Assembly (NCBI GenBank): GCA_015956445.1
Contig: WIUZ02000003.1
Span: 1,922,001 to 1,986,000, forward strand
DNA from: Thelephora terrestris
Taxonomy: Eukaryota > Basidiomycota > Agaricomycetes > Thelephorales > Thelephoraceae
Reading direction: 5' to 3'
DNA length: 64,000 nt
Shown: positions 2,247-52,760 of the stretch, one piece after another
Numbering within the stretch: position 1 is the first letter of the stretch
Layout of the letters: each line of letters opens with the position of its first letter
Made by a program: the position numbers and the translations under genes
The notes under the pieces: model-generated
The model's database searches: none
The model's input: only the letters and a program-made list of their open reading frames with translations
What the model was told of the DNA's origin: nothing

Positions 2247-2598
2247 TTTGGCCGCTTCCGACAAGGAAAACTGTGGGCGTTGCATCTTGCAGCCGATTCA
2301 TCAGTTGGTGAAGATCGAGGATGAGGTCATGGAGGTTGACCGAGCCGAAGATGCTCCGAGGGTCGCCGAGGTACGTCCGGTGACTAAGGGGCAACGATGC
2401 AAACACTCTCGACGCCGTCCTGCTCATTGTATGACCGCGTCGGCTAATCCTTACCCTCGACCAGTTGAGTCGGATGGTGACCAGTCTGGTCGAGGTGAGG
2501 AGCGAGGATTCCGATATCGGGTCCACCGTCCCTACCGACAGGTTGAGTCCGAGATCCAACTTCGACACCAGCTACGCCTCGCAAGGCAGGATCCCACC

Positions 2599-5254: not shown

Positions 5255-7361
5255 GGTGGATGAGTAGTTGGTTGGTGGATTGTTTGTTTTGGGAAGGAGG
5301 GAGTTTGATGGGTCCAACGGCCGGCTCGCGCTACGCTTTATCCGACCATCGATAGCGCTCGCGTCCTATTCGCCATTGGGTCGGACCCTCGCTTCCCCGG
5401 TCCAGGTTCCTCATACATTCGCCCTCGACATTCACGCCCCACTCGGTCTTTTGTTGCCCTGATCGAACGAGCTGACGCGTCATCTTCTCATTGGTTCGTC
5501 TTCACATGTGATATTATCCTTTGTCATTCCTTTCCCACACGACGTCATGACCCCTTTCTTATTCTCTCACGAACCCTGACCCATTAGTCATTCCTTCATT
5601 ATTCCTATTCTATAACCCGGGCCGCTTACTGTTCTAGCTTACTCTCGGCCCTTCTTTGCTCCGAGTTATTATTAGATAGGGTTATCTATGTCCCGGCCAC
5701 TCTCCTATATAGGTACCAGTAGAGTAGCTGAGGACTCCCCATCTTTGATATCTTGGGAAGTCCTCTTCTCCTTGCAGCATCGGTGTAATTGCTGTAGGCC
5801 ACTGAAGAGCTTATCGAGTAACTCCTTGAACCGTTCGCTCTCCTCTCTCACTCAGTCTTGATCCTTAACCAGTGTTTGAAGCGAGCTCGGACACGACATC
5901 GAGTTCCGCACTGCTCTTTAGATCAAGTCATCAGTTTGAGGCGCCATCCTCGGGCTCTTGTATCTGCCCTCAGAAGACGATAGGGATTTACCTGATAGAG
6001 GCTCGGCACTCCTGCTGTGAATTCGGACAACCTACCGGAGAACGCTCGTCCATCGCGTTTTGGACCACATAGACTTTGGGTGGATATAGGGAAGTCGTTC
6101 CCCCTTTGCCCCATTGTTTCTTGTTGGTTGGAGTTGCGACTCACCAACAGCACTGGTACCTGAAGGGCGAAGAGTGGCCCTGACACCACCCAGGGGTCCG
6201 ATGAGGGAGACGGAGGGTCGCTTGCTGACTACGTTGATAGTGCTGTCAAGCAGTCACCTGGTGATGGAGATGTGGGACCAGGTGTTCAGCAGTTCGGTGA
6301 CATCTGGGAGGCTGATTGGTCCGCTCGAAGGCATCTCTTCCTATCGGCTTGAACTGGTCATTCAGCTGAGTGCCGAAGACGGTGACGCCATGTTCGGGGA
6401 GGTCCTTGCGAGAAGGGGCCAGCACTACGATCTCCGGGATGGCCAGTTGATGACCTTCAGGCCTGCCGTAGATAGAGTCGACTTTTGAGGACGTTGTATA
6501 AGCATTAGTATAGCCATGTTGTTCCGTATTGCCGTGAATGTATGCGCGTTTGTGTGTTTTTGAATGATTGGTGTGAAGGATAAGGAGTGTGAAGCATTCA
6601 AACATAAGAAATGGTAAGAAGAGTTCGAAGAAAGAGCGTGTTATAAAAAGTTTAAAAATACCATGTTCCTGACACATGTGACATATTGAAGAAGATCACA
6701 CAGATAGTTCAAGACATTGGTCGTATTCGCAAACACAGTGGTAATAATACAAGAGGAGACAGGAAGAAAACTAGACAAGGAAGAAAGGATCTATCTTACA
6801 AACGCAGTCCTGATCTATTGGACAACGATGTGTGAAATGGAACGGGTTATATACCGACTGGGGGCAATATGTATAATCCCGAGATACCGGATCCACCCAG
6901 CAGTCTCAACACCCCAGAACATCATGTTCCAACCCATCGAACATATCCCTCCTCACTGAATCTAGCCCTTCATGGACTAGATCGAACCCATACTTCTCCT
7001 GAAGATTCGCTACCTCCAACTTCAACCGCATTCGAACTTGGCGACTCTTGCTTGATGGACGACACCATTGTCCAGAACGAGTTATCGGACTCTTGCGCTC
7101 TTTCTTCAAGGTCCTCGCCACCATCTGAGGAACTGGGGCAGGACTCCAGGGAGGGGATTGAGGAAGAGGGACTCCTTGATCCTGGTGGTGTTGGAGGGAC
7201 AACGGGGGAGTGAGGAGTGGGGTTGGTGCAATACGCCCCTCAGCACTGGTGGCCAAAATAGTGGAAGAGAGATTCCTGGAACGGTTTCCAATGTTCCAAG
7301 GTGAAGTGAATAAAGTCCTCGTTAAGACTGTTAACGACAACATACATGACATCCATCCTGC

Positions 7362-12481: not shown

Positions 12482-14128
12482 TGCTCTCCAACTTCCTAAT
12501 ACACTCCTCCCTCTCTCGCTCCATCGCATCCACTAATGGAGAGACACCAGGGGCCCATAGTCGAGCACGGTTAGGGTCTTCGTAACCGGCTTCCTCCCAA
12601 ACTTGAGGAGGAGCATTGTGAGCAGACAAGAACTCCATGGCAACCCGGTTGTCATGGGCGATGTTAGCAGGGGAATCATATAAGTGCTGAGCAGCGTCGT
12701 AAGGGGTGTCGTCCTTGTAGGAGACGGAGACAAAGGGGTAGCTTCAGCGTTGAGAGACATAGTAGTGAAGGTTGTTTGTAAGAGGGGAGAGTTGCTGTGA
12801 GTTGGTGGGAGTGGAAAAGAGGCGATGGGGAGAAAGGACCAAACCATGCCACAGACTAAATACATCCAGATCAATGAAGCACCCAAACGGGTAAAACAAT
12901 ACGCCATTACTCTTATTATCCCAAAAAGGATAAACGAACCCTCAACCCTAATCGCGATTCCATCAAACACTGAGAAATCCCCATCACTCTTCTACTGCCA
13001 CCGTAAAACACGAGAAATCCCCATCAATCATGGGAAATCCCCACCAGTCTTCTATTACTACCATGAAACGTGAGAAACCCCCATTGTACTCCTAATGACT
13101 CATCCGCTATTGTTCCCCTATTTGCACTCGTCATTAGTCAGTCCTAAGTCCCACTTCTCTGACTCACTTACTGTCACGAACGCGTGACATAGTAGCCAAG
13201 ATCACACAAATAATTCAAGACATTGGTCTTATTCGCAGTAGTAATAGTACAAGGGAGGCTAGTAAAAACTACAAATTCAGACAAGAACAAACGGATCTAC
13301 GTCGCACGCACAGTCCTGAGCAAACGGGCAATGGTGAGCGAAGTGATGAGGGTTATGTATGCTCTCAGGACAATACGAGTACGCTCGCGTTACCGGATCC
13401 TGCCAACACTCCCTGCACCCCAACACATCATGATATAGACTATCATGCATCTCCCGCTTCACGTCCGACAAGGCTGCGCTCACTAAGGCGAACCCATAGC
13501 GGTCTTGGAGACCCGCCACTTCCACCTTCAACTTCATCCGCACTTGACGTGACTTGTCGGAGGGACGACAGCGTTGACCAGAACGAGTCATTGGATTCCT
13601 GCGGTTCTTCTTCTTCTGGGACCTCTCCACCATCTGGCGAACTGGGGCAGGACTCCAGGGAGGGGATGGAGGGAGAGGAACGCCCTGATCCTGGCGGTGG
13701 CGAAGGGATGACTGGGGACTGGCAAGGGGGGTTGGTGCAATAAGCTCCGAGGCATTGATGTCCGAAGTATCGGAAGAGAGATGCCTGGAAAGGTCCCCAA
13801 TGTTCCAAAGCAAAGTGAGAGAAGTCCTCATTCAAACTGCTCATGATGACGTACATGCGGTCCACACGCTTCTCCAGCTTCAAAATCCTATCCTCCCTCT
13901 CCCTCTCCATGGCGTCCAACAAAAGGACGGCCCCAGGGTGACCTGCTTGAACACGAGGCCTAGAGAGCCTGGGGTCTTTGTACCCAGCTTGTTCCCAGAA
14001 CTCGGCAGGGGAGTTGTGGGCGGTAAGGAAGTCAACGGCAACCCTGTTGTCGTGAGCGACGTTGGCAGGAGAGTCATACAAATGTTGCTCCACGTTGTAG
14101 GGAGCGTCTGTCAGGGTTGTGGGCCTGC

Positions 14129-15256
14129 TTACTGTTTGTGGGGCGCTAGAGGATTAGTGGAGGGGTGAGGGGTGTCGGGTCTAGTTTTGAAGGGGGTTCC
14201 GGGTGTGGAAACGAGGGGGGGAGGGATATCGAGAGAGAGAGGTGACTCTGTCTGATAAGGGTGTACGGGTGAGTGGTAGTCCTGGCAGAACTGGCTGAGT
14301 TGTTGTACGAAAGGTTCGAAGTCCTGATCGCTAAGGCGTTCGAAGCTGACGAGATATTCTATAACCGAATAAGGTAACACTGGGGGCAGGGGCACCTGGA
14401 ATCAGTGATTACATCTTGATTACATGGTGAGTTCATGTGCACTTTTCAATAATTGTAATCGCCAATTCCAGGTTGATTACATTTCAAATGTTACCTTGAC
14501 ATGTAATTCAACTGTTGCCACCAACTCCATTTGAAATTTCCTCAAGATGTTCCTAAGCAATGTTTCCTGAATGTGCCCAGTGGGTACATTTTGAAAACAT
14601 CTCATGTTTTTGAGCGCATTTAGATTACATCTTGGACGATTGAAGAACATGCTGATTACATTGCAGTATCATTTTTGCCGACAGGTCAAAAACATCCTAG
14701 AAACATTTGTTGAGAACATTTCGAATGGAATTGGTGGTCATTGGCTGGATTACATGTCAAGGTAACATTTGAAATGTAATCAACCTGGAATTGGCGATTA
14801 CAATTATTGAAAAGTGCACATGAACTCACCATGTAATCAAGATGTAATCACTGATTCCAGGTGCCCCTGCCCCCAGTGTAATTCAGTTGGAATCTCCCAC
14901 CAAAGAACGATGATAGCAGGAGAATGGGTATGGATGTTAGTGGTGAGATGAACACGTGGGGATGGAAAGTAAAAGGCTGGACTGATACTGAAGTAGACAG
15001 TCGCAAGGACACTCTCAGTAAGATCTGAATTCCAAAGGAATTGATGATCTGCTCCTAGGAGGAAAGGAGGAGTAGTGACTCCGGCGTCGAGAGCTGCAAA
15101 GGGGCGATAGTAAGGGAAATGGGTGAGTAAGCCGGTGGTTCGGTTTACTTGAAGACTTCTGATGAGTTTATACTCCCAGATAGATCTCCTAGCGTCAGGG
15201 ACGACTGGTCGCTGAACTGGACTTGTAGAGGGAAAAGGGTTGGGGGCACTGAACAT
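14129..15256 (-). pseudogene. Second B-element gene (B2 copy), interrupted by MITE E
   Basis: The start is at 15256 with the conserved MFSAPNPFPSTSP N-terminus. The frame runs to E at 14878 and resumes at 14374 down to the stop at 14129. Removing E plus one TAA joins the two parts in frame and gives the same ~207-residue protein as 17658-18281. A TATATAA box lies at 15411-15417 on the minus strand. Function is unknown. Confidence 0.7.
14378..14878. mobile_element. MITE E, 501-bp CACTA-like element with perfect 130-bp inverted repeats
   Basis: The termini are CACTGGGGGCAGGGGCACCT and its inverse. 14378-14507 and 14749-14878 are exact inverted copies over 130 bp. It is flanked by the 3-bp duplication TAA (14375-14377 and 14879-14881). 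It has no coding capacity. Only the first 11 bases are shared with C and D, so it is a separate subfamily. Perfect arms indicate a very recent insertion, in line with its position deepest in the nest. Confidence 0.92.
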
Positions 15257-15579
15257 ACACTGGCAGGAGGATTCCTGCTGAAATGAGTCAGAAAAGGTAA
15301 GACGTGAGGAGAATTCCTCAGCTTACTTGTATTCAGATTGTGGGTAGAGGAGTACAGAAGAGATTGAGAATGGGGAAAAGAAAGGAGCAAACGCTCTTCC
15401 TTATATACCCAATCCTCTACAGGAGTCATTACTTTACAACGAGTCAAACAGGAATCAACATGGTCTGTGCGTAGTTTAGGGTAGGTTGGACGAGTCAGGG
15501 GAGTGGGACTTTTGAGCGACAAATAACGAAATGAAATAGGAGAACAATAGTAAAGGAGTCATTAGGAGCATAATGGGGA

Positions 15580-15735
15580 TTTCTCGCGATCGATGGTGGT
15601 AATAGAAGACTGATGGGGATTTCTCATGATCGGTGGGGATTTCTTTCGTTTCACGGTGGCAGTAGAGGACGAATGGGGATTTCCCATGATCGATGGGGAT
15701 TTCTCTGAATTGATGGGATCGCGATTGGGGTTGAG
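15580..15735. repeat. Short interspersed repeat array between the two B2 genes
   Basis: The motif GATGGGGATTTCTC (or its complement) recurs about every 25-40 bp between the two divergent genes. Equivalent arrays are at about 12,970-13,080 (B0), 17,205-17,340 (B1) and 33,930-34,080 (B3). It sits in the shared intergenic region and could be a regulatory or end-binding array. Confidence 0.7.
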
Positions 15736-15910
15736 GGTTCGTTTACCCTAATGAGGACGTTAATGGATAATGGGTTTTTGTTTTCCCCTTTTTGTTTTCT
15801 TTGAGTCAGGATGTATTTAAGTCAGGGGGATTAATGATCGTTCCCCTCATCGTCTCTTTTCCACTCCCACCAAACACCAGTACCACCTTCTCCAAACACC
15901 CACTACTACT

Positions 15911-16815
15911 ATGTCTTCTTTCGTTGCCAACAACGCCGTGCTCAATGCTGCCGCCACCCCCTTCACCCCGTCCTTCGAGACGGATGCTCCCTATGACGTG
16001 GAGCAACATTTGTATGACTCCCCTGCCAACATCACCCATGACAACCAGGTTGCCATTAACTTCCTCACCGCCCATAACGCCCCCGTCGAGTTCTGGGAAC
16101 AGGCTGGTTACGAGGACCCCAGGCTTTCTGGGCCTCGTGTTCAAGCTGCTCACCCTGGAGCCGTTCTTTTGTTGGACGCCATGGAGAGGGAACGGGAGGA
16201 TAGGATTGCGAAGTTGGAGAAGCGTGTGGACCTCATGTACATCATCATGAACAGTTTGAATGATGACTTCTCTCACTTTGCTTTGGAACATTGGGGACCT
16301 TTCCAGGCATCTCTCTTCCGATATTTCGGACACCAATGCCACGGGGCTTATTGCACCAACCCCCCCTTGCAAGTCCCCAGTCATCCCTTCGCCACCGCCA
16401 GGATCAGGGTGTTCCTCTCCCTCCATCCCCTCCCTGGAGTCCTGCCCCAGTTCGCCAGATGGTGGAGAGGTCCCAGAAGAGGAAGAACCGCAAGAATCCG
16501 ATGACTCGTTCTGGTCAACGCTGTCGTCCCTCCGACAAGTCACGTCAAGTTCGGATGAAGTTGAAAGTGGAAGTGGCGGGTCTCCAAGACCGCTATGGGT
16601 TCGCATTAGTGAGCGCAGCCTTGTCGGACGTGAAGCGGGAGATGCATGATAGTCTATATCATGATGTGTTGGGGTGTAGGGAGTGTTGGCAGGATCCGGT
16701 AACGCGGGCGTATTCGTATTGTCCTGAGAGTGTGCATAACCCTCACCACTTCGCTCATCGTTGCCCGTTTGCTCAGGACTGTGCTTGTGACGTAGACCCG
16801 TTTGTTCTTGTCTAG
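15911..16815 (+). CDS. B-family coiled-coil protein with Cys-rich C-terminus
   Basis: It starts at 15911. The N-terminal region (about 95 aa) has the DSPANITHDN and EQAGYEDPR motifs, followed by a coiled coil (MEREREDRIAKLEKR) and a conserved block ending in a Cys/His pair (YFGHQCHGAYC). The middle is Pro/Ser-rich. The C-terminal frame, ending at 16815, encodes a helical segment and a Cys-rich module (CRECW ... YCPE ... HRCPF ... CACD) that could bind zinc. N- and C-terminal parts are in different frames. An intron within about 16,390-16,550 is likely, but the splice sites are not settled, and this copy has one extra C in a C-run near 16,365. Function is unknown. Confidence 0.5.
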
Positions 16816-17502
16816 GTTTGTAGTTCTTATTAGCCCTTCTTGTATTATTATTATTGCGAATGAGACCAATGTCTTGAATTATTTGTGTGATCTTGACTAC
16901 TATGTCACGCGTTCGTGACAGCGTCCGTCTCAAAGGACGGAGTAAAGGGAGTGGCGGCCGCGTTGAGAATGACGTTGTTGGCACCAAAAGTAGACATAGT
17001 AGTGGTCGATAATTGGAGAGGAGGGTGGTAATGGTGATTGTGGGAGTGGAAAAGAGACGATGAGGGGAACGATCATTAATCCCCCCTGACTTAAATACAT
17101 CCTGACTCAAAGAAACCAAAAAGGGAAAACAATAACCCATTATCCATTAACGTCCCCATTAGGGTAAACGAACCCTCAACCCCAATCGCGACCCCATCAA
17201 TTCAGAGAAATCCCCATCAATTCAGAGAAATCCCCATCCGTCCTCTACTGCCACCGTGAAACAAGAGAAATCCCCGCCGATCATGAGAAATCCCCATCAG
17301 TCTTCTATTACCACCATCGATCGTGAGAAATCCCCATTACGCTCCAAATGACTTCGTTACTATTGTTCCCCTATTTCATTTCGTCATTTGTCGCCCCAAA
17401 GTCCCACTCCCCTGACTCGTCCAACCTACCCTAAACTACGCACAGACCATGTTGACTCCTGTTTGACTCGTTGTAGAATAATGACTCCTGTAGAGGATTG
17501 GG

Positions 17503-17509
17503 TATATAA
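17503..17509 (+). promoter_or_regulatory. TATA box of the second B-element gene
   Basis: TATATAA in the conserved context GGATTGGGTATATAAGGAAG, about 150 bp upstream of the start codon at 17658. The same box is at 18385-18391 (B0), 34234-34240 (B3) and on minus at 15411-15417 (B2). Upstream of each lies the motif GCACAGACCATG (17440-17451 here). Confidence 0.6.
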
Positions 17510-17657
17510 GGAAGAGCGTTCGCTCCTTTCTTTTCCCCATTCTCAATCTCTTCTGTACTCCTCTACCTACAACCTGAATATAAAGTAAGCCTGAGGAATT
17601 CTCCTCACGTTTTACTCCTTCTAACTCATTCTAAAGCAGGAATCTTCCTGCTAGTGT

Positions 17658-18281
17658 ATGTTCAGCACGCCCAACCCTTTCCCCTCCACTAGTCCAGTTG
17701 CCCGCCCCAATATCCCCGACGCCAGGAGATCTATCTGGGAGTATAAACTCATCAGAAGTCTCCAAGTAAATCGTACCAACGGTTTATTGACTCATTTCCC
17801 TTACTACCGTCCCTTCGCAGCCCTCGACGCAGGAGTCACCACTCCTCCTTTCCTTCTAGGCGCAGACCATCAGTTCCTTTGGAACTCAGACCTCACTGAG
17901 AGTGTCCTAGCAACCGTCTATTTCAGCGTCAGCCCTGCCTTTTACTTCCCTTCTCCCAAAGTTCATCTAACCACCAACGTTCACACTCACTGCCCTGCTC
18001 TCATCGTCCTTTGGTGGCATATCCCGACTGAACTACCTTATTCAATTATAGAATACCTCGTTCACTTCGAACAACTCAGCGGTCAAAACTTTGAACCGTT
18101 CATTCAGCAATTAAATCAATTCTGCCAGGACTATAACTCGCCTGTCCATCCTTATCAAACAGAGTCACCACTCTCGCTTGATATTCCCCCTCCTCTCATC
18201 TCTACACCCGGAACCCCCTTCCAAACTCGACCCGACACTCCACACCCCTCCGCTAATCCTCTAGCGCCCCACAAACAGTAA
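17658..18281 (+). CDS. Second B-element protein, 207 aa, unknown function (intact copy)
   Basis: Single open exon, 207 residues, starting MFSAPNPFPSTSP. It is a compact globular protein with conserved features in all four B copies: DARRSIWEYKLIRSLQ near the N-terminus, FLLGADHQFLW, an aromatic strand-like segment around SPAFYFP, and IVLWW. The C-terminus is Pro/Thr-rich and ends APHKQ. No known family is recognised. It lies next to the element's TGTCAGGG end, divergent from the coiled-coil gene. An acceptor-like stretch and a putative 5' intron lie just upstream (AAGTAAGCTGAGG region). Confidence 0.6.
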   Translation: MFSTPNPFPSTSPVARPNIPDARRSIWEYKLIRSLQVNRTNGLLTHFPYYRPFAALDAGVTTPPFLLGADHQFLWNSDLTESVLATVYFSVSPAFYFPSPKVHLTTNVHTHCPALIVLWWHIPTELPYSIIEYLVHFEQLSGQNFEPFIQQLNQFCQDYNSPVHPYQTESPLSLDIPPPLISTPGTPFQTRPDTPHPSANPLAPHKQ

Positions 18282-18537
18282 GCAGGCCTACAACCCTGAC
18301 ACTTACCCTGCCCTAAACTACGCACAGACCATGTTGATTCCTGTTTGATTCATTGTACGATTACTAAGCCTGTAGAGGATTGGGTATATAAGGAAGAGCG
18401 TTCACTCCTTTCTTTTCCCCATTCTCAATCTCTTCTGTACTCTCCTACCAACTGCTCAATAAACAAGTAAGCTGAGGAATTCTCCTCATACCTTATCCTT
18501 ATCTGACTCATTCAAGCAGGAATTCTCCTGCTAGTGT

Positions 18538-30827: not shown

Positions 30828-32824
30828 GATGATTGTTATAGTTTTACATTGTATTGTTAAATTCTTAGACCACTTTATATGAATATTCAACTATGTGAAT
30901 ACCTTGTAAATTTTTATTCTGGTATTGCTAGATGCATGTGCCTCAGAGACTGTAACATCTGAATGCATCAAGAGATATCTTCCATCTGTGTAACCTCAGA
31001 TGCAAGTGGTGACATGAACTAGTGTCAATCTCAGCTGACTGCACAGAATATCATTCCTGGTTCCTTGATAGAATATGTGTACTTTCTTGTCAGGGCCACT
31101 CTTCGCCCTTCAGGTACCAGTGCTGTTGGTGAGTCGCAACTCCAACCAACAAGAAACAATGGGGCAAAGGGGGAACGACTTCCCTATATCCACCCAAAGT
31201 CTACGTGGTCCAAAACGCGATGGACGAGCGTTCTCCGGTAGGTTGTCCGAATTCACAACAGGAGTGCTGAGCCTCTATCAGGTAAATCCCTATCGTCTTC
31301 TGAGGGCAGATACAAGAGCCCGAGGATGGCGCCTCAAACTGATGACTTGATCCAAAGAGCAGTGCGGAACTCGATGTCGTGTCCGAGCTCGCTTCGAACA
31401 CCGGTTAAGGGTCAAGACTGAGTGAGAGAGGAGAGCGAACGGTTCAAGGAGTTACTCGATAAGCTCTTCAGTGGCCTACAGCAAATACACTGATGCTGCA
31501 AGGAGAAGAGGACTTCCCGAGATATCAAAGATGGGGAGTCCTCAGCTACTCTACTGGTACCTATATAGGAGAGTGGCCGGGACATAGATAATCCTATCTA
31601 ATAATAACTCGGAGCAGAGAAGGGCCGAGAGTAAGCTAGAACAGTAAGCGGCCCGGGTTATAGAATAGAAATAATAAAAGAATGACTAATGGGTCCGGGT
31701 TCGTGAGAGAATAAGAAAGGGGTCATGACGTCATGTGGGAAAGGAATGACAAAGGATAATATCACATGTGAAGACGAACCAATGAGAAGACGACGCGTCA
31801 GCTTGTTCGATCGGGGCAACAAAAGACCGAGTGGGGCGTGAATGTCGAGGGCGAATGTATGAGGAGTCTGGACCGGTGAAACGATGGACCGATCCAATGG
31901 CGAATAGGGCGCGAGCACTGTCGATGGTCGAATAAAGCGTAGCGCGAACCGGCCGTTGGATCCATCAAACTCCCTTTTTCCCCAAACCAACAAACCCACC
32001 AAACAACTACTCGTCCATCATGCCCATGATCTCCGATCGTGTCTTCCGTGCTGAGAACAGCACTGCTACCATCGAGTCTGCAGATCCACGCTCCGTGCAG
32101 AACAAGAGTTACTTCCTGCCGAACGCCAACGTGGCGTACCCTAGTTATCGCGAGGTGCGATGTCACGTGTCGTCGTTTGCTGGCAACAACTGACATCGCA
32201 TCGTAGATCTTCGCGGTCGCCGACAAGGTGGATGCTCGACAACTGGAGGCAACGATAGCCAAGCCTCCCAACTACTTGACCATAGACGACGAGTTGTGGT
32301 ACCACAACTTGATCGACCACAAGTTACAGGAGTCTATGCGCGGGGTCACGTTCGACACCGAGTTGCGTATGCCATGGGAGACTCCGGTGGCGTCATCGTT
32401 GTGGGGTCTTCTGAAGATGGGGATCTACGATCTGGGGAACGGTGAAGGAAGGTGGCCGGGGGCGACTCGTTCGCAACATTATACAGCAGCCGTTGGTCAC
32501 CGCCTTTGGTTCCTTTTGAGGACGGAACAGAAAGTGGTGAGTCGGTCTGTGCATCCCGCTTGTGGGATAACACTGACAGGCTTGTAGAATGAGCGGCTGA
32601 AGCGTGAAGTGAAGGAAGCGAAGGATGATGCCCGTAGGATGTACTCGGAAGCGTTGGACACGAAGAAGACGCTGCTCCTGATGAACGATACGCTCCGTGT
32701 CACGTTTGAGAGCGAGATGTGTCACGAACGCGTGACATAGTAGCCAAAATCGCACAAGTAATCCAAGACATTGGTCTTATTCGCAGTAATAATAGTACAC
32801 GAGTGGTTAAAAAGAACTACAAAT

Positions 32825-33728
32825 TCAGACAAGAACAAACAGGTCGACATCGCATGAACAGTTCTGGGGAAGAGGGCAACGGTGAGCGAAGTGGTGAGGA
32901 TTATAAACGCTCTCAGGACAGTAGGACCACTCTCGCGTCACCGGATCCTGCCAACATTCCCTACACCCCAACACATCATGAGAGAGACTCTCATACATCT
33001 CTCGTCGCACGTCCATCAAGGCCCCGCTCACCAAGGAGAACCCATAGCGGTCCTGGAGACCCGCCACTTCCACCTTCAACTTCATCTTCACCTGCCATGA
33101 CTTGTTGGAGGGACGACAGCGTTGACCAGAATGAGTCATCGGACTCTTGCGGGTCTTCTTCTTCTGGGACCTCTCCACCATCTGGCGAACTGGGGCAGGA
33201 CTCCAGGGAGGGGATGGAGGGAGAGGAACGCCCTGATCCTGGCGGTGGCGAAGGGACGACTGGGGACTTGCAAGGGGGGTCGGTGCAATAGGCCCCGTGG
33301 CATTTGTGTCCGAAATATCGGAAGAGAGATGCCTGGAAAGGTCCCCAATGTTCCAAAGCAAAGTGAGAAAAGTCATCATTCAAACTGTTCATGATGACGT
33401 ACATGAGGTCCACGCGCTTCTCCAACTTCGCGATCCTATCCTCCCTCTCCCTCTCCATGACGTCCAATAAGCGAGAGACCGCAGGGTGTTGAGCCTGCAT
33501 CCGAGGCAAGGGAAGCCTGGGGTCTTCGTACCCAGCCTGTTCCCAGAACTCGGCAGGGGCGTTATGAGCGGTGAGGAAATCGATGGCAACCTGGTTGTCA
33601 TGGGCGATGTTGGCGGCAGAGTCGTACAGGTGTTGCTCCACGTTGTAAGGAGCATCCGTCTCAAAGGACGGGGTGAAGGGGGTGGCGACGGCGTTGAGCA
33701 TGGCGTTGTTGGCAGCGAAAGCAGACAT
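32825..33728 (-). CDS. B-family coiled-coil protein with Cys-rich C-terminus, B3 copy
   Basis: The start is at 33728 (MSAFAANNAM). The first frame is open to 32991 and covers the N-terminal region, EQAGYEDPR, the coiled coil, the YFGHKCHGAYC block and a Pro/Ser/acidic stretch. The conserved helical and Cys-rich C-terminus (CRECW ... YCPE ... HRCPL ... CSCD) lies in another frame ending at 32825. A splice from after SSPDGGE to the VKMKLKVEV segment would join them in phase, but its donor is weak. The gene is transcribed away from the 207-residue protein gene. Function is unknown. Confidence 0.5.
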
Positions 33729-34383
33729 AGTAGTAGTGGTATGAAGAAGACGGTAGTGCTGGTGTTTGGTGGGAGTGGAAAAGAGACGATGAGGGAAACG
33801 ACCATTAACCCCCCCTGACTTAAATACACCCTGACTCAAAGGGAAACCAAAAAGGGAAAACAATAACCTATTATCCATTAAAGTCCCAGTTAGGATAAAC
33901 GAACCCTCAGCCTCAATCGCGATCCCATCAAAAACCGAGAAATCCCCACCGATCAAGAGAAATCCCCATCAGTCTTCTATTACCACCATGAAACAAGAGA
34001 AATCCCCATCACGCTTCTATTGCCGCCATTGATCTAGAGAAATCCCCATCGATCACGAGAAATCCCTGGATGCTTCCATTGACTCGTGCCCCTATTGTTT
34101 CCGTATGAGTAATTACTATCTGTCGCCCTAAGTCCCTCCATTCTGACTCATCTACCCTACCCTAAACTACGCACAGACCATGTTGACTCTTGTTTGGCTC
34201 GTCGTAAAATAATGACTCCTGTAGAGGATTGGGTATATAAGGAAGAGCGTTCGCTCCTTCTTTTCCCCATTCTCAATCTCTTCTGTACTCCTCTACCCAT
34301 AACCTGAATAAAAGTAAGCTGAGGAATTCTCCTCACGCGTTACCTTTTCTGACTCCTTTCGGCAGGAATCCTCCTGCCAGTGT

Positions 34384-35008
34384 ATGTTCAGTGCCCCCAA
34401 CCCTTTTCCTTCTACCAGCCCCATCCAGCGACCAGTCATCCCTGACGCCAGAAGATCTATCTGGGAGTATAAGCTCATCAGAAGTCTTCAAGTGAACCGA
34501 ACCGCCGGTCTACTTACCCATTTTCCTTACTACCGACCCTTTGCAGCTCTTGACGCTGGAGTCACTACCCCTCCGTTTCTACTAGGAGCAGATCATCAAT
34601 TCCTCTGGAATTCAGATCTTACTGAGAGCGTCCTTGCGACTGTCTACTTCAGTATCAGCCCGGCCTTTTACTTCCCTTCTCCACGTGTTCATCTCACAAC
34701 TAACATCCACACCCACTCCCCCCGCTATTATCGTTCTTTGGTGGGAAATCCCAACTGAACTACCTTATTCTGTCATAGAATACCTCGTCAACTTCGAACG
34801 ACTTAGTGATCAAGACTTCGAACCGTTCGTGCAGCAACTCAATCAGTTCTGCCAAGACTACCACTCGCCCGTTCATCCGTATCAAACCGAATCACCCCTC
34901 TCTCTTGATATTCCTCCTCCCCTCGTCTCCACACCCGGAACCCCCTTCAAAACCAGACCCGACACCCCTCACCCCACTGCTAATCCTCTAGCGCCCCACA
35001 AACAGTAA
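34384..35008 (+). pseudogene. Second B-element gene, B3 copy, with a frameshift
   Basis: Same 207-residue protein as 17658-18281. The frame shifts in a run of C near 34,717-34,722 (CTCCCCCCGC): the first 110 or so residues are in one frame, the rest (IVLWWEIPTEL to APHKQ) in the next. Everything else is conserved, so the break may be recent or a sequencing error in a homopolymer. TATA box at 34234-34240. Confidence 0.7.
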
Positions 35009-36340
35009 GCAGGCCTACAACCCTGACAAGATGCTAGCGATGCGCGAAGAACACAACCGGTTGGTCGAGTCCTTGAAGGAACGGGACGACACTATCCAAC
35101 GGGACTTGATTGAGGTCGACCGACGGCTCAACCGTCACCGAAGGGCTCTGAATGAGCTCGACACCAAGGTCGGTGTGGCTTCTCCTGGTCTTTGTCCAAG
35201 AGGGCTCATGCCACTCCTAGGTCGATACGTTGGACGACGCCTTGCCGTTGCTGGGCGCTCGGGTCGAATCGATGAGCGAGCGGTTGTGTCACTGCCGCAC
35301 TCGTTCGGTAGCTGCGGTTCGTGACGAGTCCGAGGACGAGTCGATACCGGATCGGATGGCTTCTCCCATAGGTGGGATGTCGGTTGACATATTTGGCTTT
35401 GTCCACTGACATCCTTTTTAGCTTCCGACGGTTCGTACTGTACACCTGCGCACACCGATGGCAGGGAGGAGGTTGTTCGCGAGACGTCCGAGGAGACGGC
35501 CGTGAATCCGGTTAGCAGTTCTCCCGAGTTGGAGTACGCGGGGGAGAACGAGGTGGCCGTTCCGATTCCGCCTCCTTCAATCTCGCCGGTGCGTGGTCAA
35601 CGTTCTATCCATGCTCGTCGTTGGGTTCCTTATCGCGGGGCACTTCGTCCAGCGCACTGTATGCGTCCCAGTAATCCCAACGTTGTCCGCCAGGGTGGAG
35701 ACATTGAGTCCACCGTCCTATTCCGATGCGACGATGCTACAGTGTCGCGTGGATCGCGGCGAGCTGATTCCGGTGGAGTCCGTCGACGTGAACAGCTTAA
35801 CCGACCTTACGCTCTTGTCGGTCCAGTGTGCAGCGGAGGCCGTTCGCCTGGTGGCTCAACTGACCGAGAGAGTGGAGGGTTGGTCAGTCCAGAGGACTCT
35901 GGATCAGACTATGGTCGATTCAGCGAGGAACCGCCTTCGCGCCGAGGTTCAGTTGGCCGTCGCTCATCGTCTGGAGGAAGCTCGGGTCGTCGAGATGGTC
36001 GACGAGGAAGTCGACGAGAATGCCTCGGAGGGGACGGAGGAGGAGGTTGCCAGTGCTGAGGAGTACTGGCAGACCAGGTCTTGACGACTGGGGTTTGTAC
36101 GCCTTAGTCCTCGTTCATAGAGTCCGGGCGGATTCAACTCCGTCGGTTTGATAGCCTTGTGTCTTCGCTGCGCGCCGTGTGTAATATCATCAGTGTCCTT
36201 GTCTGTGTTCCTTGATGACGTGTGAGTCGTGATAAGGGAAATGATAAGATAGGAAAGGGGTATAGGTAAGGAAAGTGGGCGAAAGTTGGGTGTAAAAAAT
36301 GGTTGAAAAAGGGAATAAAATTCAGCACGCTGACATTTCT

Positions 36341-44300: not shown

Positions 44301-47300
44301 TGAGTGTCCTGGGACATATCCGCCCTCGTTACCGCAGGTTGTTTTCTGATGCGGTCGATTTCTCGGATCTACCATACTGCCATACAATGGTCATGATTGA
44401 TGCCTTGATCAGAAGAAATTGGGGTCCTCGTCCTATCTGGCACAATGATAATAGGCCATCCGATCATGAACACGTCATATATGCACGGGATATTGCTGGT
44501 CTTGCTCAGGTGGAGTATCAACAGGAATCAGAGGTACCCCATTGGATCCTTGGGTTTGCATTCAACTCCTTGTCCCTGGATCCCTTGCCCCCAGCATCTG
44601 TTGTTGCTGATTGCTTCAAGATTATTGCAATTGGTCTGGGTTATGACATTTTAGATGGGGAGGCTTCAAAAAAGGGGTAAATTTGCTTCACTTCTGTCAT
44701 CATCTACCTTCTGACCAGATTTAGTTTGAGCATGGAGGGGCTTTCAACCTTCATCGTCCAGGAACTCAAAATCATGATTGAAGGCGGCAATCCAGCTCTT
44801 GACTCCACCCTGATTGTACATCGTTTCTACATCTTTGCTGTCTGCATTGATTTCAGCAATCGACGGGTAGCAATCACACAAGGGCTGGGAAAATTTGCAA
44901 GAATGTCTGCTCGGGGCTTCTATCATGCCCTTCATCACCTCTTGGTCATGGACCCAACTTCAAATGTCTTGGAAGACATTCGCCAACTTTACCACAAGGC
45001 CTTTGCTGATAGGATCAATTTCACAGGCCTCCCATCTCGCCACACAATGATTACAATCAATGCTATGATCAGAAGAGATTGGAGCTCTCGTCCTATCTGG
45101 CATGATGATGATAGGCCGTCCGACCGTGAACACATCGGATTTTCCCAGGATATTGCTGAGCTTGCCCAGGTGGAGTACCTACAGGAACGAAAGGTACCCC
45201 AATGGATCCTCAACTTTGCTTTTGATTCCCTGGCCCTGGACCCACTGCCCCCAGCATCAGCTGTTGCTGACAGTCTCAAGGCCATTGCAATTTATCTTGG
45301 TTGTCATGTTTCAAATGATGGGAATTTGGACAACAGGTATATATATTCCAGTCCTCTTAGCATTCTCCTTCTGACTGATAATTAGTGCAAGAGTGGATGA
45401 AGTTACAACCCTCATCACCCAGCAACTTGAAACAATGGTTGAAGACAGTAGCCAAACTCTTGACTCTGCCTTTGTTGTGAACTGCTTGAACATCTTTACC
45501 CTCCGTGTTCAAAAGGCAGGAATCACACAGGGGCTGGAGCATCTCACAACAGTGTCTGCTATGTGCTTCTACCGTATCTTCTATCGCCTCACAGTTGTGG
45601 ACCCAAATTCAAATGTCCTAGAAGACATCTGCCGACGTTTCTGCAGGGTTTTCCCAGATGGAGTTAATTTCACAGGTCTCCCATACCGCCACACAATGAT
45701 CATGGTCCGTGCTTTACTCAGGAGAGATTGGGGACCTTGCCCTGTATGGCGTGGTCATGATAGGCCACTTGATCATGAACATCTTCCATTTGCACGGGAT
45801 GTTGCTGAGCTTGCCCAGGCAGAATATCAACGGGAGCAAGAAGTACCAGGATGGATCCTCGGCTTTGTGTTCAACTCCCTGTCTCTGGTCCCCCTGCCCC
45901 CTGCATCCATTGTTGTGAACTGCCTCAAGACAATTGCGGTTCATTTAGGCTGTGACATTGGCAAAGTTACCATTTTTAACGAGAGGTAAATATTTGGGTC
46001 TTTTCATTAGAATCAACCCTCTAACCAAGAACTAGTGAGAAAGTGGAGGAAGTCACAACCCTCATAACTGGGAAACTCAAAACCATTGTTGAGAACAGTG
46101 ATCAAGCTCTTGATTCCACCTGTCAGGGCCACTCTACCCCAACAACTACCAGTGCACTGAGCCAACTCCGCAGAGTACTCACTAGTCCAACTAGCTTGTG
46201 AGAGAACGATCACGTCTCTATTCTTCCGGTAGGTTGTCCGAGGTCACTACAAGTCAGGTCGAAATCCTAAAGAGAAACCCAACCTAAACCGTACTTCGTT
46301 CGGTTTAACAAGCAAGGGTTTATCCCTACAACAGGATTGATGACTCCACCAGTTGATCGACTGGACGCTCGAGGTGTTCTAATATGACTGTGGAGAGTCT
46401 ATAGTTACGAGGCGCAGTTGACGCGCAGAGCGGGAGGGAGAGCAGATGGGGGATGTCTTGGATCAAACAAGAAACTCTGACTTGTCCTTAACTGCAACTG
46501 GGCTGAGAAGGGCAGAGGATTTCCTGAGGTAACAAAACTAAGGTACTACGATACAGCCACAGTTGCTACTTATACTAAAGGAGTGGCCATGACGTCAATA
46601 CCCTAATATACCCTTATCAAGTCCAGAACAAAGGGAGATAAGGAGTGTGAGAACGCTAAGTAAGGGAAGCGAACAAGGTGACGCGTGGGAGAATAAAGGA
46701 CAAAGGGCCTTACTAGCGTGTGAAGGATTGCATAAAAGATAAGGAATGTCCGCATGAAACATAGGGGTAAAGATAACACTAGTCTTAAAAGAAAAAGGGG
46801 CATGGGGTCATGAAAGTTCGTACCTGGGGATCACACCCAAGGGCCAGGTAGCAATCTCCCTTTACATAGCTATGCCAGCGGATTCGGGAGTAGAGCCATG
46901 CAACATCCCTTGTTGTCTGTAGGCAGTAACAGCATCACGGACTAGTGGTAACCTCAACGTACGTCCGAACATGAGGAGGTCGGGCCTAGACTCATGGGAC
47001 ATGAGGGATTACAGATTCGCCGGCGTTTCAAGCTAACGGCTACTCCACATGCGCTGGGCTAACCAAAAGAATCCTAGGGCGATGCTTCCGAATAGCGGCG
47101 AGTCCTTCCTCCGGTTAGGAGACTGTGATGTGACTGTCCACGTGTGTGATCAGGGTCCAGGGTTGATCGTAATCGTAAAGTCATGGGGGGGGTCATAAAA
47201 AGGGGTTCGTGATGTCATAAAGGAGTCATCAGGGTCTTGAGACCTATTTTTAGTGCGCGCGTGTTCTAGGTGTTCCGGAACGAAGTTCTTCCAAGGCCGT

Positions 47301-47423
47301 CCCGCGGGCCAAGGTGTCAGCTTGATGTAGTAAGCCGACGGTGATGGTACAGGGGCGGAAGTTGATGTGACCCGGACCAATGAGGTTCGTCGAGGTAGGT
47401 CACGTGAAGGATCACTGATCTAG

Positions 47424-47431
47424 GCTATAAG
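47424..47431 (+). promoter_or_regulatory. TATA-like box of the A2 gene
   Basis: GCTATAAG about 70 bp upstream of the ATG at 47499. The same box is found in A1 at about 359-366. The G-element gene has TATATAA at 50966-50972, about 65 bp before its ATG. Confidence 0.45.
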
Positions 47432-47498
47432 AAGGACGTCTTCTTGGAGCCTTCCTTGATCAGCAACACCAGCAACTTCCCCAACATCTTACCAAAAC

Positions 47499-49238
47499 AT
47501 GTCCTTCCCCAACAACCATACCTACAAAGTCGCCAATGGTATCTCCACCATCTCCCGTATCGACCGTCGTGCCGCCGCTCGCAAGACCTATGCCTGTGCG
47601 GCTGGGACTCCCTATACCACGGATGACCAGGTATGGGGGAGACCTAGAGCTTCGTGTGTTCGCACTAACGCCTTCCTCTAGGTAGAGGTTACGTTCTTTT
47701 GGGCGTTGATGTCCAGCTAACGGCTTCTAGATCTTGGAGGTCATCACGGAGGTGGACCCCGAACGTCTCAGGGAGACGATGCCTCATTTGATGGGGTTGA
47801 CCTGGGATGACAAGCTCTGGGTCCGTACGATCATCGCCGAGAAGGTGGCCTTCCGAATGCGGGGTAGGTTCGGGGAGCTGGAGCATCCGATCAAGAAGGA
47901 GCTCTGGTACACCCTGCAGAGGGGAATCTACGATCAGGACCTATTGGAGCACGGAGCAACCGTTCCTCGGGCCGTCCGTCATGCCACCGCCGCCACGTCG
48001 TTGTTGTGGTCGCTCGTTCGGGAGGGGGAGAGCAAAGTAGGTCCTTCGTTTGAATATTCGAGTATGACTCTCGACTAATCAAACTGCCTAGGTTGAACGT
48101 TTGGAGCGTGAGGTGAAGGAGGCAAAAACAGACGTCCTTCGTCTGTCTGCGGAGGGTCTTCAGATGAAGGAGACCTTAGCGGCCTTCCAGCAGGGGACGA
48201 ACGAGGCGTTGGAGGCAATGGTCGCCAACCATCAGGAGTTGATCGCAGGGTTGAAGGTTCGGGACAACAACATCAAGGGAGCGTTGGCCAGGAGGGATGA
48301 AAAGGTAATGCCGCTTTCATCATTGCTTCGAATGATGGAAGCTGACATTTCCTAGACCGAAGAACTCGAGAACGTGGTGGCTGTGTTGACAGCGCAGGTT
48401 GAGTCCTTGCAGGGCAAGACCTGCAACTGCAAGGAGGGTCCCAAATTGGTTGGTCAGGGGACCGCCGATGTTCCGTTCGAGTTGGAGTACGCCGACGAGG
48501 TGGTACTCCCATCGCCTAACCCGTCGTCCTATGCAACGCCTCCGATCGAGAACGCGGTTCCCTTGCCAACTCCGGGTCCGGCTTCTACTCTGGCTGCTTC
48601 CGACAAGGAGAACTGTGGGCGCTGCGTCTTGCAGCCGATCCATCAGTTGGTGAAGATCGAGGATGAGGTCATGGAGGTGGACCGCGCTGAAGATGCTCCG
48701 AGGGTCGCCGAGGTACGTCCGGTGACTAAGGGGCAACGTTGTAAACGCTCTCGACGCCGTCCTGCTCATCGTATGACCGCGTCGGCTAACCCTTACCCTC
48801 GACCAGTTGAGTCGGATGGTGACCTCTCTGGTCGAGGTGGGGGAGGAGAGTTCCGCTATCGAGTCAACCGTCCCTACCGACAGGTCGAGTCGGAGATCCA
48901 GCTTCACCACCAGCTACGACTCGCAAGACATGATTCCGCCCAGGGGTCCGACGAGGGAGACGGAGGGTCGCTTGCCGACTACGTCGATAGTGCTGTCGAG
49001 CAGTCACCCGGTGATGGAGATGTGGGACCAGGTGTTCCGCAGTTCGGTGACATCTGGGAGGCTGATCGGTCCGCTCGAAGGCATCTCTTCCTATCGGCTT
49101 GAACTAGTCGTTCAGCTGAGTGCCGAAGACGGTGACGCCATGTTCGGAGAGGTCCTAGCAAGGAGGGGCCAGCACTACGATCTCCGGGATGGAAGGGTGA
49201 TGACCATGAGGCCTGCCGTAGATAGCGTTGAATTTTGA
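47499..49238 (+). CDS. A-family coiled-coil protein (intact copy)
   Basis: Exons 47499-47630, 47731-48036, 48092-48304, 48356-48982 and 49032-49238 (1485 nt, 494 aa). The last splice is tentative: it enters a frame that is conserved in A1 mostly by synonymous changes. Without it the protein ends at 49102 (465 aa). Layout: basic N-terminus, helical domain with TWDDKLW, MRGRF and TLQRGIYD, a coiled coil (about 150-240), CNC motif, a Pro/Ser linker (SSYATPP), a basic stretch KRSRRRPAHR that could be a nuclear signal, and a C-terminal globular end (SYRLELVVQLSAEDGDAMF). It is homologous to the F-family protein, with matching intron positions. No catalytic motif is seen. Confidence 0.65.
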
Positions 49239-50338
49239 TGGACTTGGGTGATACTTGTATAGCTCGTTGTGGATTCGCTGGGAATAGTACGCGCGTGTGT
49301 GTTTCGAATGATTGGTGTGAAGGATAAGGAATGTGAAGCATTCAAACATAAGAATTGGTAAGAAGAGTTCGAAGAAAGAGCGTGTTATAAAAAGTTTTAA
49401 AAATACCATGTTCCTGACACCACCCCTGTTATGAATTGCTTCAACATCTTCACTGCTTGCATTAGTGTCAGCAACCAAAGGGTAGCAGTTAAAGAAGGGC
49501 TAGAGCAGCTTGCAACAGAATCTGCTGGGTGCCTCTACCACATCTTTTGTCACCTCACCATCACCAACCCAACTTCAAGTATCCTGGGACACATGCGCCC
49601 ACGTTACAGCAGGTTTTTCCCTGGAGCAGTTGATTGGACTGCTCTCCCATACTGCCACACAATGGTCATGATTCACGCATTGGTCAGAAGAGAATGGGGC
49701 CCTCTTCATATCTGGAGCAATGACAATAGGCCCTCTGATCATGAACACATCACATTTGCAAGGAATATTGCTGAGCTTGCCCAGGCAGACTACCAACGGG
49801 AACAAAAGGTACCTGGATGGATCCTTGGCTTTGCATTTGATTCCTTGTCTCTGGACCCGCTCCCCCCACCATCTGTTGTTGCCGACTGCCTCAAGGCCAT
49901 TGCAGTTGAATTGTGCTGTGAAATTTTAGATGTTGTGACATCTGATACAAGGTAAATATCTTTTAAACTTCTTAGTATTCACCTCCTGACAAGGATTAGC
50001 CCTCAAATGCAGACAGAGCTCATTTCCAGCCTCATTACCCTGAAACTTGAAACTATGGTTGAGGCTGATGATCTACTTCCAATTGTGCTCAAGTGTGAGG
50101 CCATATGTGCACTACTTCCATATGTGATCTCTTTGGAGCAACATGTTCAACAAGAGATGGCCAACACAATCATGCTTGTCATTCAGGCCTCAAAAGATCA
50201 TTATCTCATATCCTTCATTGCATCACACTTCACTCCATTGCTTGGCAAACCAAGTTCCTCTTTCCAAAACTGGCTTATCACAATCATGGCACCACATATA
50301 AACTGGGAGGACAACATACACAGGGAAAGCACAGTCAT

Positions 50339-52760
50339 TGTCAGGCCGACGTGACCTCTACAGTTCAATAGCACTCTTGCTATCCAAACCTTTCACACGC
50401 AGGGATCAAACACACAGTTATAACCCTGTTGCAAACCCAGGGATATCGGAAGTTTCTTCACAGACTAGATTGGAGAAGAGGAGAAAGAAGGAGACAAGGG
50501 TCTTCAGGCACTCTTGCTCTAAGCACACAGCAATAGAGGTCACGGAGAGTCTGATGATAACAAATCTAAGGAGTACAGGCTAAACTACTCTGAGTATATA
50601 TACTACTTAGATTTGTGACGTGACAGTGACATGTAACTACCCTAAAGATACAAACACAGACAAACATGGTCCGTGCGCAGCACTGCATGGTCTGTGCGTT
50701 ACGTGGTGACTAATGCTACAAATTATCAGCTGATAAACGAAAGTGTGGTGGCCAATAGCAATTTGAGAGCATTACAAAGCAGTTACAAAGCATGACGTAG
50801 CTTGGGAATGTTCGGAAGGAATGTGGGTATGACTGACTAACAGCCAATAGCAAAAGGGGAGCATATGACTAAAGATAGGGGCATATGATGTCATGTGGGT
50901 CATGCGCAGTAAACAATAGAAATGATGACTCAACTCCTGAGTCGTGGAAGGGGCGTGGCATTTGGTATATAACCAAAGGGGGTTGGATGACTGGGTCTCT
51001 CAACAAACCTCCCTTTGTTACACACACAGCCAACATGCCTCGTGCCTCTACTCGTGTTCCTACCCGCCGCTCCTCTTCTTACTCTCCTGTTCAGGAGAAC
51101 AACTTCAACATTGATCGTTTCTCCCATGCTCGTCGAGATGCTTCCCGCCCTTATCCTACTCTGGGAAACGTTATGGACCGGACCGCCACCGCCGACCCTA
51201 ATGAGGGGTTCTCTGATTTAGGTGGGGGCCCTGCTTGCGTATTCCGATTTAGGAAACCAAGCTAACTCCTTTTTAGGTTTCAGGGATTTCATCCAGGCTT
51301 CTCGTAGGGTATCTCGGCGCAAGTTGGCGCGTATCGAGACGAACCCCTATGCGACCGAACTCCTTAACAGGGGTGTCGAGTTCGTCACCGAGACCAATGA
51401 GACCTTCAACTCCGTGTTGGAGGCCAGCGTTATCCATACGGGTAACGTTGGGTCCATGTTGATGGACGAGATTGCTCACGTCAATGAGCGAGTTGATGGT
51501 CGTCGAGAAGAGATCGAGAAGTTGGAGAAGGAGTTCCTTGGATGTCATGAGGGCATCTTAAAGATTGAAGATGAGCAGGAGCAACATGGTATGGCGATTG
51601 ACAGGTTGAAGGTAAATGTGGGGTCGGGAGATATTGGACATCTCTAACCCAACATTTCCTTTAGGGAGAGGTGATCACATTGAAGGACTTGGTCCGGAGC
51701 CTCGTTGCCAAGACTGGAGAGTTGGAGGATGATAAGGTAACGGGTAGGGGTTGAAGGTTTTTGATATCTTCTAACCCTATTCGTTTTAGGTTCGCCTTAC
51801 TCGTCGTGTCTCCGAGTTGACCGGAGAAGTCCGGGATCTCCAAAGGAAGTGCAACGAACCGGAGGTCCGAGTTGAAGAGGAAGAGGATGAGGTTCTGCAT
51901 CGGGCCGGGTCGCCGATCATCCCTAATCGGGCTGAGTCGCCACCCGCTCGTTTGTTGGTCCGTCACGAGAACAGGTTGGTTCCCATCGACGATGAGGTCA
52001 TTGAGATCGGGAGCGACGAATTCTATCAGAACGTAGGAGTTGTCCGTAGGGATACTCCTCATCCTGAGTTCGTGTCTACTCCTTGGGGTAGTCGCCGTCA
52101 ATGGCCTGCTCTGGAGTATGATCCGTACGCCGAGTTCGTTCCCGATAGTGAACCAAACTCTGATACGGAGCTTCCAGATTACGATGACTTGTCGGACGTG
52201 GACCCGAACGAGATCCGGGAGCAGAACTGGTTGAATGAGGAGTTGGTGAGATCGGCATTGGAAGTAGTACAAAGGATCCGAAGAGATATTGATTAGATAA
52301 CTCTTTTGTACTGTTGGCTTCCAATGAATCTTCTTTCTATTTTGTCTATTGCGTGTGATCCATGAGTCGTAAAGCATAATGGTTTTCATAAGTCCAATCC
52401 AAGGGTCAGATTAATAAGCCGGTTGACTTCTGCGAGAGGTCAGCACGCGACGCTTATTAATACATCCCTTGTTGTCGGTAGCCTGAATATCTACTAATCG
52501 TCCAGGGGCAACGGAGGGCCAGGTAGGGGGGATCTTCATATGAAGGTCCGCCGGTACATGTTCACGTATTATACCTCGGGTCTTCTGGGGTATCTTGACT
52601 AGTAGCACGTTCCACGTATTGGACTTTGAGTCGTTAAGCATAGAGCATACTGCATAATAAACAGTTTACCGCCGTGTTTAGGGCAAGGCACCAACTGACT
52701 TAGTGGTGATGAGGCGTTAAACGAAGGAAATAAAAGGGGGTAAACGGCGAAATCATCACA
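50339..52760 (+). mobile_element. Element G (TGTCAGG superfamily), complete
   Basis: 2422 bp, starting TGTCAGGCCGACGTGACC and ending AATCATCACA. It is flanked by the 5-bp duplication GTCAT (50334-50338 and 52761-52765). It interrupts the last exon of DUF6535 copy 2 and its removal restores the frame. The 3' end shares only ACA with the other families. Two motifs CATGG(T/C)C(T/C)GTGCG at about 50,664-50,700 match the GCACAGACCATG block of the B elements in inverse orientation. One four-exon gene is present. Confidence 0.92.
51035..52296 (+). CDS. G-family coiled-coil protein (intact)
   Basis: Exons 51035-51221, 51277-51611, 51665-51736 and 51790-52296 (1101 nt, 366 aa), all with canonical splice sites. 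The N-terminus is Arg/Ser-rich and disordered (about 1-60). A helical segment with RKLARIETNPYATELL is followed by a long coiled coil (about 95-200). The C-terminal third is strongly acidic and disordered (SEPNSDTELPDYDDLSDVDP) with a final helix. The layout, orientation relative to the TGTCAGG end and intron-rich structure parallel the A, F and B genes, but direct sequence similarity is weak. Function is unknown. Confidence 0.65.

Follow-up and report, generated by a model that had tools for sequence, protein, structure and literature searches.

A chromodomain Ty3/gypsy retrotransposon of Thelephora terrestris with very long terminal repeats that contain a selected antisense gene predicted to be spliced

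The DNA analyzed here is a window of 64,000 nucleotides from the fungus Thelephora terrestris (contig WIUZ02000003.1, positions 1,922,001 to 1,986,000, or C23:1922001-1986000 in the contig labels C1, C12, C23 etc. used below), within a genome of 40.6 Mb in 60 contigs. It contains repeated units of four families, called A, F, B and G, which carry protein genes and are bounded by TG...CA ends and 5-bp target duplications. The initial annotation grouped them as a superfamily of mobile elements of an unrecognized kind, and the question raised by this locus is therefore what these units are and what moves them. We found that A and F are long terminal repeats (LTRs) of Ty3/gypsy elements, and that the U3 region of these LTRs contains a gene, predicted to be spliced, that is antisense to gag-pol. 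The joint reading that A and F are such LTRs, present as solo copies in the window, and that B and G are most simply similar solo LTRs is one that we consider highly probable.

The TG...CA ends and exact 5-bp duplications described in the initial annotation were present in all seven of the named window copies. The heptamer TGTCAGG, with which the units begin, was found 13 times in the window compared to an expectation of 12.4, which is no enrichment; the evidence for elements is the repeat families rather than this motif. A genome search with the 3299-bp copy A2 gave 635 candidates, 40 of which were scored, and 34 of these (including A2) were near-full-length, the others being 93-96% identical to A2. 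Thirty A copies and 12 B copies were fetched, and the statistics on duplications, alignment and genes given below refer to these sets. An exact 5-bp duplication was found in 24 of the 30 A copies and in 12 of the 12 B copies; for A and B, the duplications hold elsewhere in the assembly. When the flanks of the six other A copies were read, the duplication of L019 matched once a changed end base was tolerated, L007 and L009 proved to be the two LTRs of one element with GATTA at both outer ends, and L022 and L024 had exchanged flanks, as expected after recombinational inversion. The latter two are almost identical, inverted copies at C23 ~671-681 kb, a signature of inversion via recombination between solo LTRs. 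Twenty-five of the 30 A copies were solo.

It had been stated that the units have no LTR. Within the window, only solo copies are seen, so that the LTR nature of A and F escaped notice; genome-wide, however, A and F pairs flank gag-pol. The A copies (3.3 kb) were found in direct pairs on C1 and C12 with 6,017 bp between them (9,318 and 9,341 bp from start to start), and identity between the two LTRs of an element was 3299/3301 on C1 and 3323/3324 on C12, with outer 5-bp duplications of GATTA (C1) and CCATC (C12). The F copies (2.9 kb) were found, by position, in direct pairs on C23 and C5 with 5,827 and 5,867 bp between them; the C23 element is bounded by GACAT, with the stretch read on one side stopping at the expected LTR border. 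The complete F element nearest the window extends from C23:1909986 to about 1921674, ending ~0.3 kb to the left of the window.

The interval between the C1 LTRs was covered by a full domain scan, and the C12 interval and F were covered for reverse transcriptase (RT) only. On the strand opposite to the LTR gene, the C1 interval encodes a gag protein of 484 amino acids with a CCHC knuckle and a pol protein of more than 1,240 amino acids with Pfam matches to protease, RT, RNase H, integrase, a Tf2-1-like SH3 domain and a chromodomain. A genome search with the A RT gave 96 matches, eight at 99-100% identity (A type) and three at 79% (F type, in long open frames); the remaining matches were at most 54% identical, and the long ones about 30-37%. 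We conclude that A and F are the LTRs of two Ty3/gypsy families of the chromodomain type, related to each other, and that their copies in the window are solo LTRs, which would most simply be leftovers of LTR-LTR recombination. The 5-bp duplications would be produced by the integrase of the element, and the TG...CA termini would be ordinary LTR ends. The proposal in the initial annotation of real mobile units with an integrase-like mechanism is upheld. The autonomous partner that it had envisaged exists for A and F, outside the window, but none was found for B or G. Its other suggestion, the coiled-coil protein as the mobility factor, is unsupported for A and F, the enzymes of which come from gag-pol.

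Alternatively, the A pairs might be composites, formed when gag-pol happened to land between two A units of independent origin, which would then not be LTRs. Nothing was found in favor of this, and an exact pattern of the LTR end, 12 free bases and TACCAGCC was found 11 times genome-wide, comprising eight A and three F primer sites (one of the F sites differing in its first base), and these 11 junctions coincide with the 11 RT-bearing A and F elements, the exact pattern being present nowhere else. With one mismatch there were three further places, and the reversed control with at most one mismatch gave 4 and 0. In addition, the flanking units were near-identical at both of the A elements compared, the outer ends had 5-bp duplications, and the primer site is complementary to the unit's own sequence and differs accordingly by family, all of which makes a chance composite scarcely conceivable. 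A polypurine tract next to the 3′ LTR fits the LTR reading of A and F too: in two A elements and in one F element, a purine run ends 3 nt short of the LTR. The region C23 ~1032748-1045874 contains a pair of A primer sites and a pair of A RT matches, the two members of each pair being 9,310 bp from each other and on one strand; this is probably an LTR-internal-LTR-internal-LTR tandem.

The retrotransposon Tf1 primes reverse transcription with the 5′ end of its own RNA. Two bases past the 5′ LTR lies a stretch (12 nt long in A, 11 nt in F) that recurs antisense in the family's own LTR, at a site ~410-445 nt from its end. For the A stretch, the match is 12 nt in its own LTR and a maximum of 7 nt in F; for the F stretch, it is 11 nt in its own LTR and a maximum of 7 nt in A. 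Because primer site and LTR stretch co-vary in this way between A and F, their complementarity suggests that reverse transcription would be primed by the 5′ end of the element's own RNA, as in Tf1. The site was kept in 29 of the 30 A copies and lost in L005. In A2, the 12 nt complementary to the family primer-binding site, which mark the putative start of R, are at 46529..46540 on the − strand, and the self-complementary site of F2 is at 31522-31532.

The U3 of A is ~2.9 kb long and contains a gene model of four exons and 465 codons with three GT-AG introns (100, 55 and 51 nt), antisense to gag-pol. A2, a solo LTR of 3299 bp whose paired relatives flank gag-pol, is at 46121..49419 (− strand in the sense of gag-pol) between exact CCACC duplications (46116..46120 on the left and 49420-49424 on the right). 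Its antisense gene is on the + strand, with exon 1 at 47499..47630 (starting with ATG), exon 2 at 47731..48036, exon 3 at 48092..48304 (encoding a coiled coil), and exon 4, a long open reading frame (ORF), from 48356 to the stop (48356..49102). Exons 2 and 3 are homologous to the F gene, the protein identity being 34% for exon 2 and 41% for exon 3. The orientation by the main gene that was used in the initial annotation is therefore antisense to gag-pol for A and F, and the superfamily proposed there holds for A and F, whose genes are homologous, but the G and B genes lack demonstrable homology.

It was found that the splice sites were conserved in all 30 A copies and that the frame was open in 28. 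In the alignment of the 30 A LTRs, variants present in at least three copies clustered in one codon phase along LTR positions 1351-2850, and the favored phase shifted twice, at introns 1 and 2 but not at intron 3, the 51-nt length of which is a multiple of three. Outside the gene, a phase bias was at most weak (e.g., 2, 9 and 4 at LTR 901-1050). Among the gene variants in at least three copies, 152 were synonymous and 40 nonsynonymous (ratio of nonsynonymous to synonymous polymorphism, pN/pS, 0.11), those in two copies were 49 and 17, and singletons were 75 and 81 (pN/pS 0.46); variants in at least three copies differed from singletons with a Fisher p of 1.5e-9. Third codon positions held 145 of the 192 shared coding variants, and gapped alignment columns numbered 0 in the coding sequence and 56 in the rest of the LTR. 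In replicating lineages, the protein was kept intact by selection.

Alternatively, the antisense ORF might be a chance frame whose phase signal results from mutation bias or gene conversion, as strong recombination among copies could spread variants and singletons too prefer third codon positions (77 of 156). We regard this as very unlikely in view of the phase shifts at the first two introns and not the third, the excess of shared variants at third positions, the low pN/pS, the coding sequence free of insertions and deletions, and the homologous gene in F. Upstream of the antisense ATG, the 300 bp of non-coding sequence at LTR 1051-1350 had six shared variant sites and is possibly a shared promoter region.

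Because the selected gene is located in the LTR, it is present twice per full element and survives in a solo LTR, and because it is antisense to the RNA that is reverse-transcribed, its introns would persist, unspliced from the genomic RNA. Solo-LTR formation removes gag-pol yet leaves the LTR gene whole, and in this way dozens of intact, possibly expressed copies have been seeded; copy-number control and trans-complementation are therefore candidate roles for the gene. If the antisense genes described in the accessible part of PMC7264820 are a guide, the product would most likely be an accessory or regulatory protein of the element. There is also a risk in annotation, as such units are easily misread as families of host genes or as transposons that lack a transposase, which the initial annotation of this locus illustrates.

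Linkage was evaluated in 28 A copies (two near-duplicates were dropped) at 174 sites, and in the 12 B copies. In A, r2 decreased from 0.29 within 20 bp to 0.04 beyond ~200 bp, compared to an unlinked expectation of 1/27, and in B it decreased from 0.29 to 0.11 (expectation 0.09). The A copies differed by a mean of 4.7%, with private variants of only ~0.4% each. The A copies behave like a recombining population, and the reassortment of variants among them is a readable record of recombination during or after reverse transcription. The pattern may fit template switching between co-packaged RNAs or gene conversion, and assembly error in repeats may also play a part. Between the C1 and C12 elements, the internal region differed by 2.7 and 3.6% (two halves) and the LTRs by 6.3%, mostly within one 600-bp block, and therefore more than one lineage of full elements exists. 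Relative to A2, ~280 bp of the LTRs of the C12 element, L033 and L034 (query 734-1014), were strongly diverged and unaligned; A loci on C13, C52 and C56 show the same gap, and these copies form a subfamily.

B and G units are also numerous. Termini with at most two mismatches were found 214 times for B and 199 times for G (control, 0 for each); these counts are genome-wide, with positions listed for 100 of each, and the duplication test for G concerns the window copy alone. In the window, B1 (13172..18301, duplication CTTAC) is interrupted by B2 (14109..16920, duplication GCGTC), neither with an assigned strand, and B3 (32720..35028, + strand, duplication AGATG) and G (50339..52760, − strand, duplication GTCAT) are solo units, probably LTRs. 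In B3, gene 1 is at 34384..35008 on the + strand, with a stop 20 bp from the element end; it encodes 207 amino acids in intact copies and is frameshifted here. Gene 2 is at 32825..33728 on the − strand and encodes a coiled coil, then a Cys/His-rich C terminus in another frame. The G gene, at 51035..52296 on the + strand, has multiple exons with provisional borders and encodes a coiled coil.

B gene 1 was intronless with 207 codons and intact in 11 of the 12 copies, and its shared variants were 95 synonymous to 8 nonsynonymous (pN/pS 0.035), compared to 47 to 46 for singletons. An intron in this gene, suspected from the window copy, was rejected, as comparison with the other 11 copies shows a plain frameshift in the window copy. 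The predicted structure of its product was uninformative (mean predicted local distance difference test score 31.5). B gene 2 showed codon-phased variation across the 12 copies, and an intron with a weak 5′ splice site would join its coiled coil to the Cys/His-rich end. Codon-phased differences were also found among three copies of the G gene, and from these patterns of variation, the B and G genes look selected. No homology of the B proteins to the A or F genes was found, and 3 of 100 shuffles scored at least as high as the A-G motif, a similarity that is not significant. B and G may most simply be taken as solo LTRs of elements similar to A and F, full copies of which are rare or gone.

Several observations weigh against our joint reading. 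At one A locus of the 30, L004, the duplication is missing without an explanation. The A protein has no Pfam match above the cut-off, with weak coiled-coil-type matches below it, the preference of singletons for third positions given above also counts here, and the antisense gene and the RNA start are predictions from the sequence. A test for pairs flanking pol, which recovers the A and F pairs, compared 121 B and 114 G positions with 89 of 96 Ty3 and 78 of 99 Copia pol matches and gave no B or G pair, although with these partial position lists absence is not proof. Finally, among the flanks of B ends (84 found when a non-T base was required 18 positions on, 83 printed), no recurrent primer-site-like flank was found, apart from three repeats that look like duplicated loci. 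Of the 30 fetched A loci, however, just one borders a primer site, and at that share none among the 80 distinct B flanks would be expected ~7% of the time; therefore, B as solo LTRs stays compatible with this result.

Other candidates for the missing parts of B and G elements were rejected. Copia as a partner gave no flanking pairs (78 of 99 Copia pol matches), and an exact A-type primer site was present at no B or G end, with one B end (C23:1066526) having one mismatch. A polypurine-tract scan gave 22 matches, and the upstream sequences of the six that were read had nothing in common. Three B-B pairs ~3.2-3.3 kb apart resembled short non-autonomous elements, but the stretches at the borders of their gaps share no sequence, and that on C1 lies partly within a B copy. 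On C59, B and G copies at ~629-633 kb recur at 670-674 kb with a constant offset of ~40.77 kb, an apparent segmental duplication.

These results leave some room for another view, in which each single unit would be a complete transposon of an unrecognized type that is moved by its own encoded proteins, and the gag-pol elements would be something separate. Each strand of B contains a conserved coding region, one of which ends 20 bp from the element end, and young-looking B copies exist (7 private variants in L037 and 9 in L036, in a range of 7-57 over the 12) with no full element visible, as is the case for G. However, the paired units, outer duplications, primer site and integrase identify A and F as LTRs, B gene 1 is intronless on what would be the genomic-RNA strand, as for a retroelement, and searches of Pfam and PDB gave no match for it; we regard this view as unlikely. 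A narrower version, which we also doubt, is that B (perhaps also G) is a self-contained 2.3-kb unit and not an LTR, with retroviral-type ends and two divergent genes, perhaps copied by RT and integrase of the A/F type; in a milder form, solo A and F LTRs would still supply an accessory protein after the loss of gag-pol. We prefer solo LTRs for all four families.

The other A and F copies of the window are interrupted or nested. A1 (1..6674, − strand) is an A LTR truncated by the window edge, with insertions of F1 and of a 725-bp palindromic element. F1 (2599..6185, + strand in the sense of gag-pol, duplication CCACC) is a solo F LTR nested in A1, with an internal tandem duplication of ~656 bp (2599-3912) that is absent in F2 and in the listed near-full F copies. 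F2 (31088..36335, − strand, duplication TTTCT) is a solo F LTR split by B3. The palindromic element in A1 (1522-2246, 725 bp) and a 503-bp palindromic insertion in B2 (14377-14879) are fold-back elements, both with CACTGGGGGCA at their ends. The intergenic center of B contains imperfect repeats of GAGAAATCCCCATC-like units (13005-13097, 17198-17350 and 33930-34062). A2 sits inside a tandem array of ~650-bp host gene units (43486-46120 and 49420-49932), the ORFs of which contain a DRPSDHEHI-like motif, and G is just past the last unit.

Several known systems share some of the properties of the A and F elements. The LTRs of Tf1 are a few hundred bases long and are not known to contain an antisense gene. 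Like A, the Tf1/sushi chromoviruses have RT, RNase H, integrase, a chromodomain and a Tf2-1-like SH3 domain, and like A and F, they have a primer site complementary to a stretch of their own LTR, whereas the A and F LTRs, unlike those of Tf1, are 2.9-3.3 kb long and contain a spliced antisense gene in U3. Protein genes that lie wholly or partly in LTRs, or are antisense, include sag of mouse mammary tumor virus, HBZ of human T-cell leukemia virus type 1 and the LTR antisense gene of human immunodeficiency virus type 1; the hosts of these viruses are unrelated to that of A and F. The self-priming arrangement is defined in the accessible part of PMC2864245.

The rice elements Retrosat2, RIRE3 and RIRE8 have ~3-kb LTRs with TGTCA...TGACA ends and an extra ORF, according to the accessible part of PMC3485330, in which the word "antisense" does not occur; this ORF0 is upstream of the gag-pol ORF, unlike the LTR gene of A and F. 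The element crapaud of Podospora anserina is, in the portion of PMC10787394 available, an LTR element with a chromodomain, many solo LTRs and divergent U3 variants, but the divergent U3 is less than 200 bp long, in contrast to the gene-containing U3 of A and F, and that portion mentions neither an LTR gene nor the word "antisense". In the part of the literature covered, we found no fungal LTR described as containing a spliced antisense gene. Conserved extra genes antisense to gag-pol are described in the accessible parts of PMC7264820, PMC11963269 and PMC8365987 for Grande, RIRE2 and Retand of plants and as brtn of Boty/BcGypsy1 of Botrytis cinerea; the word "intron" is absent from the texts of PMC7264820 and PMC11963269. 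From these sources, the ORFs of Grande, RIRE2 and Retand sit between pol and the 3′ LTR, whereas the A and F gene sits in the LTR. Extra antisense genes of Ty3/gypsy elements are already known between pol and the 3′ LTR; what sets A and F apart is that the antisense gene, which is selected and predicted to be spliced, sits inside the very long LTRs of a chromodomain element.

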